A DNA stretch of 64,000 nt, from assembly GCF_014174155.1 (NCBI RefSeq), contig NZ_JABEQM010000004.1, positions 1-64,000 of the forward strand. The letters run 5' to 3'. The position numbers and the translations under genes were made by a program. The notes under the pieces are model-generated. The model was not told the origin of the DNA. It made no database searches and worked only from the letters and a program-made list of their open reading frames with translations. Below are positions 34,945 to 38,304 of the stretch, in pieces (position 1 is the first letter of the stretch; each line of letters begins with the position of its first letter). Source of the DNA: Gluconacetobacter tumulisoli. GTDB taxonomy: Bacteria; Pseudomonadota; Alphaproteobacteria; Acetobacterales; Acetobacteraceae.

Positions 34945-35892
34945 TCAGTGAACGATCAGGAAATGATCGGCCAGAAGGCCGCAGAACAGCAGAAACAGGT
35001 AAGCCAGCGAGTAGCGGAACGCGCGGCGCGCGGGACCGTCCCCGGTCAGGCTCACCCCCTTCTCGTCCTGGCGGTCCAACAGCACGCGGGCGGCGCTATA
35101 GACGAACCCGGCATCCAGCAGCGACGCCGTCGCGGTATAGAGCCAGCCCGACAGGTGCATGACCGACGGAACCAGCGAGACCGCCGACAGGATCAGCGTA
35201 TACCACAGGATCTGCCAGCGCGTATGCCGCGCGCCCCGAACGACCGGCAGCATGGGAATGCCGGCGCGGCCGTAATCCTTGCAGGCATACAGCGACAGCG
35301 ACCAGAAATGGGGCGGCGTCCAGAGGAAGACGATCGCGAACATCACCACCGGCAGCACGCCGATCGATCCGGTGGCAGCGGCCCAGCCGATCATCGGCGG
35401 GAATGCCCCCGCCGCCCCGCCGATCACGATGTTCTGCGGCGTCGAGCGCTTGAGCCACATCGTATAGATCACGGCGTAGAAGAAGATCGAGAATGCCAGC
35501 ACGAACGCGGCCAGCGTGTTGGTTGCCAGCCACATCAGCAGCACCGACGCCACCGACAGGCCGATCCCGAACCCCAGTGCCTCTTCCGCCCCGATACGGC
35601 CGCCCGGGATCGGGCGGGTCGCGGTGCGTGTCATCACGGCGTCGATATCGCGGTCGTACCACATGTTGATCGCACCGGCGGCACCCGAGGCCATGCAGAT
35701 GCACAGAATGCTGACGGTCGCGACCAGCGGATTCATCCCGCCTGGCGCCATGGCCAGCCCTGCGGCGCCGGTGAACACGACCAGCGAGATGACGCGCGGC
35801 TTCAGCAGCGCGAACCAGTCCCGGGCCTCGGTCCCCACCACCGCCGCGCTGAAACGCGCGTCGGCTTCGGCCATGGACGCCCCGGCGCTCAT
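34945..35892 (-). CDS. ctaB: Protohaem IX farnesyltransferase (haem O synthase)
   Basis: Inner-membrane UbiA-family prenyltransferase that converts haem B to haem O. 315 residues, about nine helices. The Asp-rich motif NMWYDRDIDAVMTRTATRP and the second loop YACKDYGRAGIPMLPVV are typical, and LVVFTGAAGLAMAP is near the N-terminus. The start overlaps the oxidase-like gene by 4 bp (ATGA), so the two are coupled. In acetic acid bacteria haem O would serve a bo3-type quinol oxidase; the gene may therefore be kept for that, independent of the decayed neighbour. Confidence 0.95.
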   Translation of the reverse strand: MSAGASMAEADARFSAAVVGTEARDWFALLKPRVISLVVFTGAAGLAMAPGGMNPLVATVSILCICMASGAAGAINMWYDRDIDAVMTRTATRPIPGGRIGAEEALGFGIGLSVASVLLMWLATNTLAAFVLAFSIFFYAVIYTMWLKRSTPQNIVIGGAAGAFPPMIGWAAATGSIGVLPVVMFAIVFLWTPPHFWSLSLYACKDYGRAGIPMLPVVRGARHTRWQILWYTLILSAVSLVPSVMHLSGWLYTATASLLDAGFVYSAARVLLDRQDEKGVSLTGDGPARRAFRYSLAYLFLLFCGLLADHFLIVH

Positions 35893-37274
35893 GCCCGCAC
35901 CTCATAGGCCGGAAAATCGGTGAAGGAATATCGTGGCGCGGGCGACGGCAGGGACCATTCCAAGGTCCGCGCGCCGGCGCCCCAGTAATTGCCCGCGATC
36001 GGCCGCGCGCCGCGCAGCAGGGTCACGCCGATCACGGCGACGAAGGTCAGCATGGACAGGCCCAGCAATACAGCCCCCAGCAGCGCGCAGGCCGGCTGAT
36101 GGGGCACAAGACACAGCAGCGTGCCCGTCGCCGCCAGGACGACATGCAATCGGCCACCCGCCTCGGGGTAGGCATGGCCCGACATCTTGCCGATCCAGTA
36201 GTAGAAACCCCCAAAGGTCGCGAACAGTGCCGCCGGCAGCGCCACAGCATGCCCGTCGGCCGAGCCCGACAGCGCCGACAGCATCGGCCCGACCACCAGC
36301 AGCCCGACGAAGGCACAGGCCCACAGCATCGGAACGCGCGGGACCGGCCGGCCGCCGGCGATGGTCGCACCCCAGGCCACCAGCAGGGCCAGCATCGGCA
36401 TCATAACGGCCACCTGTTCGACCATAGGCCGCGTTCCGGCCGCCATGGCCAGGCCGGCCGTGAACATATCATGCGTCCATACCGTGGCGCCCCCGACGGA
36501 CATGACCACCATCGCGCCCAGGGCGACACGGCGCAGACGCATCGGAACGCCGGAGAACGTCTCGATGATCTGGCAGACGATGCCCGATGCCGGCAGCAGA
36601 AGCAGCGCTACTTCGGGGCCCGAAAAGGCCCGCAGCGCCAGATCGACATCCCGCAGGCCCGTCCCCGCCAGCAGCCCTTTCGTCAGGGCCGCCGCCAGGA
36701 CGGGCAGCACGATGACCATCATCATCGCGGCCAGCGCCTGCGCCCAGACGAACAGCGGCATCTCGCCCAGCGCCAACCCTGGGCGACGCATGTTCAGGGC
36801 CGTCGCGACCATATTGATCGACAGGCCCAGCATGGCGACACACCACAGCAGGGTCGACCATTGCGGCAGCGAGGTCCCCGCGCCGGCCGGCACGCCGGAC
36901 AGCAGCATGAGGAAACTGGCGGCAACGCTGCCCCAACACAGCAGGTTCAGCCGCGGAAACGCCATGGACGGCGCACCCAGCAGCAACGGCACGAACCAGC
37001 TTCCGAACCCGCCGACCAGCGCCGGCAGGGCGCAGAACATGACCATCATCGCGCCATGGTCGATGACGGCACGATCCCACGGACCCGACACCGCCCGGTC
37101 CAGCCCCGCCTGCCCCAGTTGCAACAGCAGGGCCAGGCCGCCACCCGCAAGCCCGGCAAGGACGGCCAGTCCCAGATACAGGGTCCCGATTTCCTTGTGG
37201 CCGGATGCGCGGACACATCGCGCCAGAAAGCCGCCGGTTCCGATCTCCATCCGAACCTGCCCCTCTGTCGGCAT
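35889..37274 (-). CDS. Cytochrome c oxidase subunit I homologue lacking the binuclear site
   Basis: 461 residues, about 12 helices, alignable with COX1 from helix I to the C-terminal LEWSLPSPAPRYSFTDFP. Intact landmarks are DHGAMMVMFCALPALVGGFGSW (His73, low-spin haem a ligand), APSMAFPRLN, NMRRPGLALGEMPLFVWA and FGGFYYWIGKMSGHAYPE. The catalytic centre is gone. The CuB/cross-link motif HPEVY reads GPEVA (219-223). The CuB His pair reads H268-D269. In the HFH motif of helix X the high-spin ligand is Asp340 while the low-spin ligand His342 remains. No frameshift or stop, so it is maintained as a protein. Genes for subunits II and III are absent nearby. It could be a haem-binding electron carrier, a sensor, an assembly partner of CtaB, or a relic. 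Confidence 0.85.
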   Translation of the reverse strand: MPTEGQVRMEIGTGGFLARCVRASGHKEIGTLYLGLAVLAGLAGGGLALLLQLGQAGLDRAVSGPWDRAVIDHGAMMVMFCALPALVGGFGSWFVPLLLGAPSMAFPRLNLLCWGSVAASFLMLLSGVPAGAGTSLPQWSTLLWCVAMLGLSINMVATALNMRRPGLALGEMPLFVWAQALAAMMMVIVLPVLAAALTKGLLAGTGLRDVDLALRAFSGPEVALLLLPASGIVCQIIETFSGVPMRLRRVALGAMVVMSVGGATVWTHDMFTAGLAMAAGTRPMVEQVAVMMPMLALLVAWGATIAGGRPVPRVPMLWACAFVGLLVVGPMLSALSGSADGHAVALPAALFATFGGFYYWIGKMSGHAYPEAGGRLHVVLAATGTLLCLVPHQPACALLGAVLLGLSMLTFVAVIGVTLLRGARPIAGNYWGAGARTLEWSLPSPAPRYSFTDFPAYEVRA

Positions 37275-37436: not shown

Positions 37437-38168
37437 TCAGGCGACCAGTGCCTCGACCGGCTGCATCTCGCCGTCGCGGCGCAGGGACACCAGCGTGAAC
37501 AGGCCGGCGGGCGGGACCGGCCTGATCGTGGCCTGCGCCAGGTCGGCCGGCGGCAGCAGCGATTCGATGGCAAAATCGGGGTGCCAGCCCAGCGAGCGGG
37601 ATGCCCGGGCCATGCCGCGTTCCACCGCCAGGCGAACGCCACCGGTGGCCAGGAAATGGTTCACGAACAGGATATGGCCACCCGGACGGACAACGCGCTT
37701 CAGTTCGCACAGCAGGCGGCGGGGATGCGGGACCACCGATGCCACGAACATCGCCACGGCGATATCGAACGACGCATCGGCGAAACGCGTTTCCTCGGCG
37801 TCCATTTCCAGCAGGGCGTCGACGTTGCGCAGGTTCAGCCGCGCGACGCGCTGGCGCGCACGATCCAGCATGTCGCCTGACAGATCAATCCCGGTGATTC
37901 GCTTGTCGGACCGGTAATGCGGCAGGGCCAGACCGGTTCCCACCCCGACCTCCAGCACCGACGTGCCCGGCAGGGCGTTGACCGCCGCGACGGCACGCTT
38001 GCGCCCGAAGGCGGAAACGCCGCCGAACAGGGTATCGTAGACGCCCGCCCAGCGGCGATAGGCGGCCTTGACCGCCTCGGCGTCCAGTGCAGTACGCGGG
38101 GTCGGCACGCAACCGGCCGCGCCCCCGGTGCCCGTCTCGACGGGTGCTTCTTGAAGAACTTCGCTCAT
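37437..38168 (-). CDS. pmtA: Phosphatidylethanolamine N-methyltransferase (PmtA type)
   Basis: SAM-dependent enzyme that would methylate phosphatidylethanolamine stepwise to phosphatidylcholine, a lipid acetic acid bacteria make. 243 residues from ATG 38168 (MSEVLQEAP). The N-terminal AAYRRWAGVYDTLFGGVSAFGRKRAV block is typical of the Pmt family; SAM motif I is VLEVGVGTGLALPHY, followed by GIDLSGDML and RVVRPGGHILFVNHF. The frame extends upstream without homology. Divergent from a 57-residue membrane protein. A ubiE-like methyltransferase is the main alternative. Confidence 0.8.
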   Translation of the reverse strand: MSEVLQEAPVETGTGGAAGCVPTPRTALDAEAVKAAYRRWAGVYDTLFGGVSAFGRKRAVAAVNALPGTSVLEVGVGTGLALPHYRSDKRITGIDLSGDMLDRARQRVARLNLRNVDALLEMDAEETRFADASFDIAVAMFVASVVPHPRRLLCELKRVVRPGGHILFVNHFLATGGVRLAVERGMARASRSLGWHPDFAIESLLPPADLAQATIRPVPPAGLFTLVSLRRDGEMQPVEALVA

Positions 38169-38304
38169 CAGGATTCCTCTCTGCCCTGCCGGGCGGCTGT
38201 CTTCAAGTGGCGGTCGATCCAATGTACGCTTGGGCACGGAAATTACCTGTCCTCCCGCCTGTCACAGGGGCACCGCGTCGGCGGCGCGGGGAAGATCACG
38301 GGGG

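Follow-up and report, generated by a model that had tools for sequence, protein, structure and literature searches.

Subunit I of the haem-copper oxidases is thought to serve the reduction of O2 or NO, and its bis-His site holds the haem through which electrons enter the true oxidases. Matsutani (2014) is reported to have found ctaB and ctaA functional and to have ascribed the loss of CtaD function to mutations. In PMC10715153, a "deranged COX1-like protein" of Acetobacter is said to lack all conserved metal-cofactor-binding residues (citing Matsutani 2014), and the proposal of Degli Esposti (2023) given there is that the COX1-like protein stabilises CtaB in the membrane. In A. pasteurianus, ctaB is APT_01774 and ctaD is APT_01775 (PMC5158111). 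For oxidase assembly, PMC9145763 describes that subunit I gets its low-spin haem first, that CtaA and CtaB form a complex, and that Surf1, a membrane protein holding haem near CtaA/CtaB, is the haem A chaperone for subunit I.

The Acetobacter protein and APT_01775 lie in the same cluster with ctaB as the gene treated here and almost surely belong to its family. It has been described before, as a deranged remnant; what is new is the single-haem site that it keeps under selection. No mention of the kept low-spin ligands or of selection on this gene was found in the open-access literature, and the literature search yielded nothing on its expression or essentiality.

The CtaD-like gene and its ligand residues

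The window, that is, the whole stretch of 64,000 nucleotides of Gluconacetobacter tumulisoli DNA that was analysed, contains the gene together with two neighbours on the same strand:

34945..35892, minus strand: ctaB, haem O synthase (TIGR01473, 324.9 bits against a cut-off of 210.3), with a 4-nt overlap with the CtaD-like gene
35889..37274, minus strand: CtaD-like gene, 461 aa, a COX1 homologue with the O2 site lost and the low-spin haem ligands present
37437..38237, minus strand: methyltransferase-domain gene, directly upstream in 33 of 33 CtaD-like loci compared

Direct translation gave an uninterrupted frame with an ATG start, 461 aa and a single terminal stop. The coordinates in the earlier note were right; translation of both strands assigned the gene to the minus strand, the plus-strand reading not being the gene. 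The protein matched the Pfam COX1 family PF00115 with 160.6-165.5 bits (cut-off 34.8) and a solved Rhodobacter-type subunit I with E=6.7e-60, and is therefore a homologue within the superfamily. Against the CtaD equivalog TIGR02891 it reached 194.5 bits, below the cut-off of 670.75.

Residues were mapped by aligning the window protein with 12 CtaD proteins of the same GTDB family (12 of at least 30 loci). The R. sphaeroides numbers and ligand roles used below (His102, His421, His284, Tyr288, His333, His334, His419 and others) are those of known oxidase structures.

37056..37058, minus strand: His73 codon, aligned with the low-spin haem ligand His102, helix II
36249..36251, minus strand: His342 codon, aligned with the low-spin haem ligand His421, helix X
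36606..36620, minus strand: GPEVA (219-223) instead of HPEVY, CuB His284 and Tyr288 lost
36468..36473, minus strand: His268-Asp269 instead of the CuB His-His pair (alignment, translation)
36255..36257, minus strand: Asp340 instead of the haem a3 ligand His419 (alignment, translation)

The local contexts read by direct translation were I-D-H73, GPEVA at 219-223, W-T-H268-D269 and D340-G341-H342. In the alignment, G219 and A223 fell on CuB His284 and Tyr288, H268 and D269 on CuB His333 and His334, and D340 on haem a3 His419. Thus, the residues that had been read in the earlier note, namely both low-spin ligands in place, Asp340 for the high-spin haem His, GPEVA for HPEVY and H268-D269 for the CuB His pair, were all found again. 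The protein has two axial His in separate helices at known haem-site positions, and one of the four His of the binuclear centre (H268).

The losses go beyond that centre. In-frame deletions have removed the stretches with Arg481/482, the Mg-site His411 and W172/Y175, so that the claim of an end-to-end alignment with COX1 without frameshift stands for the frame, and for the alignment only if in-frame deletions are allowed. Likewise, it is true that the binuclear centre is lost, but not that only catalytic residues are, since K362, Arg481/482 and His411 are also gone. None of the 57 copies aligned has K362, the haem-propionate Arg481/482 or the Mg-site His411; the Arg pair and His411 fell to in-frame deletions. 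At the D132 column the window protein has Ser, and 14 of 30 close copies have Asp. Compared with CtaD/COX1, subunit I of the A1-type cytochrome c oxidases, the CtaD-like protein is homologous and shares the predicted 12-helix fold and both low-spin ligands, but has lost the binuclear centre, the propionate Arg, the Mg-site His and the K-path Lys.

Structures were predicted for two copies, both with family alignments as input. The AlphaFold2 model of the window protein (36 rows; pLDDT 86.9, pTM 0.90) had twelve long helices, one of them kinked, with H73 in helix 65-99 and H342 in helix 341-365; its top Foldseek match was the R. sphaeroides oxidase 3dtu_C (E 7.6e-22, TM 0.80 by query). The model of a distant copy, L097 (401 aa, 27 rows; pLDDT 89.6, pTM 0.90), again had twelve helices, and its His52 and His311 lay in the helices matching those of H73 and H342. 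These predictions suggest that the 12-helix fold is kept.

Conservation and selection across the acetic acid bacteria

When 397 genomes of the GTDB family were searched, at least 30 loci were found in three genera, the window locus among them; among the matches listed, the gene was present in 13 of 14 genomes of Gluconacetobacter (g1), 4 of 4 of Novacetimonas (g73) and 13 of 13 of Komagataeibacter (g60). Each of these 30 close copies had a start codon and an open frame. From 59 chosen genomes, a profile search and the DNA around ctaB together added 27 distant copies of 16 more genera, each a single open frame of 408-482 codons from stop to stop, their start codons being guesses. Stop flags raised on several of them by the profile search were located where the profile overruns the gene's own end. 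A further 52 copies were read from 24 and 31 more chosen genomes, 8 of them from genomes already counted. Altogether, orthologues were read in 101 genomes of 19 genera, a non-random sample chosen by hand in which the loci listed are minimum counts, and 100 of the 101 were single open frames. Copies were also detected in G173 and G363, outside the 101. In the sole split copy (G327:C21:23817-24976), from a genome that is 85% complete, the two matches lie in different frames, owing to a frameshift or an assembly error. A metagenome bin titled Asaia bogorensis (L171) contains a full-length CtaD match with 34% identity to the window protein and unlike the acetic acid bacteria copies analysed; the bin is possibly misnamed.

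H342 was His in 101 of 101 genomes and H73 in 100, the exception being the split copy. In the 57 copies, both were His in every case, while His was found at the former His284 site in none, at His333 in 38 (30 close, 8 distant), at His334 in one and at His419 in one. In the 52 further copies, His was found at H342 in 52 and at H73 in 51, and at the former His284 site in none, at His333 in 11, at His334 in 10 and at His419 in one. H268, still His in all 30 close copies, the window's included, was so in only 8 of the 27 distant ones. None of the 109 aligned rows had more than two of the four binuclear-centre His, and so no alignment restored the histidines, an outcome that the earlier note had named as contrary to the loss; in those copies that have diverged most, to 20-25% identity, the His columns depend on the alignment, with recognisable local contexts.

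The two low-spin ligands stand out from a protein that has otherwise changed extensively. Of 295 columns invariant in the 12 CtaD proteins, the residue was kept in a mean of 7 of the 27 distant copies, and in only six columns, H73 and H342 among them, was it kept in all 27. Parsimony on the tree, for the 365 columns in which no more than 3 of the 33 rows are empty, gave a mean of 12.1 changes per column and zero in six: G30, H73, P96, W177, W266 and H342. The former binuclear ligand columns 219, 268, 269 and 340 had 16, 10, 17 and 14 changes, respectively. The family part of the tree amounted to 38.2 substitutions per column. With a root set between the two groups, the mean root-to-tip distance was 3.38 for CtaD-like proteins versus 0.33 for true CtaD, a roughly tenfold higher rate. 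C81 and C145 do not vary among the 30 close copies and were considered as a new site, which was discarded since C81 is kept in 0 and C145 in 4 of the 27 distant copies.

Selection was assessed by Nei-Gojobori dN/dS, without a codon-frequency model, on within-genus pairs with dS of 0.05-1.5. Over all usable pairs the values ranged from 0.05 to 0.44. The median was 0.325 in Gluconacetobacter (77 of 78 pairs usable, range 0.117-0.442), 0.174 in Novacetimonas (6/6) and 0.176 in Komagataeibacter (78/78), versus 0.122, 0.056 and 0.066 for ctaB of the same genomes. By medians, dN/dS is thus about 2.6-3.1 times that of ctaB, which indicates a looser constraint than on CtaB. In other genera it was 0.133 (g85, 5 of 28 pairs), 0.121 (g31, 7/66) and 0.083 (g54, 16/78), most pairs of these three being too diverged, and 0.104 (g33, 23/45), 0.112 (g101, 1/3) and 0.185 (g46, 1/1); the one pair of g61 was not usable. 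In ten close pairs the majority of differences lay at codon position 3. The gene is therefore under purifying selection, looser than that on CtaB, and random-loss decay was rejected on the strength of dN/dS, the codon-position pattern and the open frames. This bears out the view of the earlier note that the pattern is not that of random decay; a relic had been expected to show dN/dS near 1 and frameshifts in close relatives, and one broken copy in 101 was found.

The genus g31 was taken to be Acetobacter since two of its citrate synthases matched PDB 2h12, presumably the A. aceti enzyme, at 855 and 883 bits, versus 715 for g54. Apart from H73 in the split copy, both low-spin His are present in the copies read, g31 included, which contradicts and corrects the published statement (PMC10715153) that all ligands are lost.

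Genomic neighbourhood and origin

In the window the CtaD-like stop codon overlaps the ctaB start by 4 nt. Judged by eye and with apparent ctaB starts, such an overlap was seen in 20 of 32 loci and none in the other 12. A frame kept solely for translational coupling to ctaB was rejected in view of these 12 loci and of the same evidence that speaks against decay. At all 57 loci checked the CtaD-like gene had ctaB as its neighbour, and the same-strand order methyltransferase, CtaD-like gene, ctaB was found in 33 of 33 loci compared. A Tim44 gene facing ctaB came next in 30 of these 33; it was missing at two Gluconacetobacter loci (L141, L142) and at L109, which lies near a contig end.

In Lichenicoccus roseus an intact ctaD, with HPEVY, HHM and HFHY present, occupies the same place beside ctaB. 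We take the CtaD-like gene to be the original ctaD, passed down at its old position. In the CtaD tree, the 33 degenerate rows formed one side of a branch with support 100/100 and long branches. In a tree of ctaB, the methyltransferase gene and gshB, g56, which has the CtaD-like gene, weakly joined Lichenicoccus with its intact CtaD (35/56), so that parallel losses keeping the same two ligands are conceivable. Going by the CtaD tree the degenerate copies would be one clade, a separate event in g56 being possible.

As regards absence, six genomes (G029, G034, G066, G070, G116, G210; G034 is 82% complete) had no window-protein match among the matches listed and no ctaB over the cut-off. Three of them had no COX1 match and three had one of 139-145 bits. 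In G029, G116 and G066 (genera g30 and g66), this distant COX1-family protein has an open frame of 785-833 aa, a length like that of quinol NO reductases. Neither the CtaD-like gene nor a ctaB over the cut-off was found in G388 (1310 contigs, 87% complete), perhaps due to an assembly gap; this genome has two COX1 proteins. G009 is uninformative, its ctaB sitting at a contig end. In G001 (contig C7, locus L132), ctaB comes right after the methyltransferase gene with neither ctaD nor a CtaD-like gene in between. Two full-length COX1-family proteins are encoded in this genome and no CtaD-like one, which indicates that the CtaD-like protein is not required wherever CtaB and oxidase proteins occur together; in the three-neighbour-gene tree the genome is weakly placed outside the acetous group.

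Of the 40 genomes searched for ctaA, 20 had it, and in 12 genera that have the CtaD-like gene none was found (1-3 genomes each). Since the gene is retained there, haem A is not needed, and a dependence on it was rejected.

Possible function

The earlier note had suggested a repurposed membrane haem protein, and repurposing is well supported at the sequence level by dN/dS, the open frames, the absence of restored His and the all but invariant low-spin ligands. We estimate a probability of roughly 0.85 that the protein binds a haem, six-coordinate and hence not O2-reactive, between helices II and X. The propionate arginines, lost in 57 of 57 copies, count against this reading, and haem binding may be weaker for it.

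As to what such a haem would be for, the linkage to ctaB at all 57 loci checked and the absence from the six genomes without a ctaB over the cut-off make us lean towards haem handling, and since the gene persists in genera in which ctaA was not found, haem O or B is indicated rather than haem A. In the scheme that we propose, ancestors of the acetic acid bacteria would have dropped cytochrome c oxidase for ubiquinol oxidase, with ctaD being repurposed rather than lost. The protein would have shed the haem a3/CuB oxygen site, the proton-path residues and several loops, while retaining the 12-helix fold and the bis-His site for one low-spin haem, formed by H73 and H342 of helices II and X. Newly made haem O from CtaB, or its substrate haem B, would enter this site and pass to the quinol oxidase; alternatively, the CtaD-like protein would gate CtaB. 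Since the low-spin haem is the first to enter subunit I during assembly, the CtaD-like protein could be viewed as a subunit frozen at its first haem-loading step and serving as a haem relay. That it works with CtaB in one of these two ways we consider a little short of an even chance; that the old CtaD became, throughout the clade, a one-haem relay that loads haem O from CtaB into the successor quinol oxidase, as an assembly factor, is a more tentative proposal. Such a protein would work like Surf1, which is unrelated to it in fold and size. Against a relay, the linkage and the shared absence from genomes could be explained by a common operon alone, G001 has CtaB and oxidase proteins without the CtaD-like gene, and the constraint is looser than that on CtaB.

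The bis-His site would also suit an electron-transfer cytochrome or a redox or haem sensor, whose low-spin haem would exchange electrons with quinol, a periplasmic carrier or a partner instead of supplying haem, and W266, W177 and P96 are near-fixed along with the ligands. However, no gene for an electron-donor subunit was found beside the CtaD-like gene in the loci compared, the neighbours being ctaB and the methyltransferase gene, and the gene is missing where ctaB is missing in six genomes, so that we regard this function as unlikely. A protein free of haem that merely stabilises CtaB in the membrane, needing its fold and not a cofactor, as proposed in print (PMC10715153), would agree with the constant linkage to ctaB, the fold predicted to be kept and the lost propionate arginines. 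We judge it improbable, because there is no evident reason for such a protein to retain precisely the two residues, on separate helices, that hold one haem axially, in a sequence that otherwise diverges about ten times as fast as CtaD. The fast divergence, the 20 stop/start overlaps and the one split copy could also be read as signs of a relic in decay, its frame surviving by chance or through coupled translation of ctaB, and Matsutani's 2014 reading of the Acetobacter gene is reported to have been in that sense. With dN/dS far lower than 1 in all genera that had usable pairs, differences mostly at third codon positions in the ten pairs, 12 of 32 loci without overlap, and H73 and H342 unchanged on the tree, this is very improbable.

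The clade thus appears to keep an oxidase fold and one of its two haem sites after the loss of the reaction centre. If the protein does bind haem, it would be a natural low-spin-only oxidase fold, useful for studies of haem insertion, and it may reveal the route of haem O from CtaB to the oxidase; if it is a relay, the catalytic subunit of a discarded oxidase would have found a second life in the assembly of the enzyme that replaced it.

The window genome encodes two further COX1-family proteins, with 488.1 and 480.1 bits (PF00115). CyoB, subunit I of the bo3/ba3 ubiquinol oxidases, shares superfamily and fold with the CtaD-like protein, and the CyoB-type protein of the window genome, with 488.1 bits where the CtaD-like protein has 160.6, lies outside the CtaD-like clade. 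The protein of 480.1 bits (G000:C3:78679-80004) is full-length and probably a CoxA-type oxidase.
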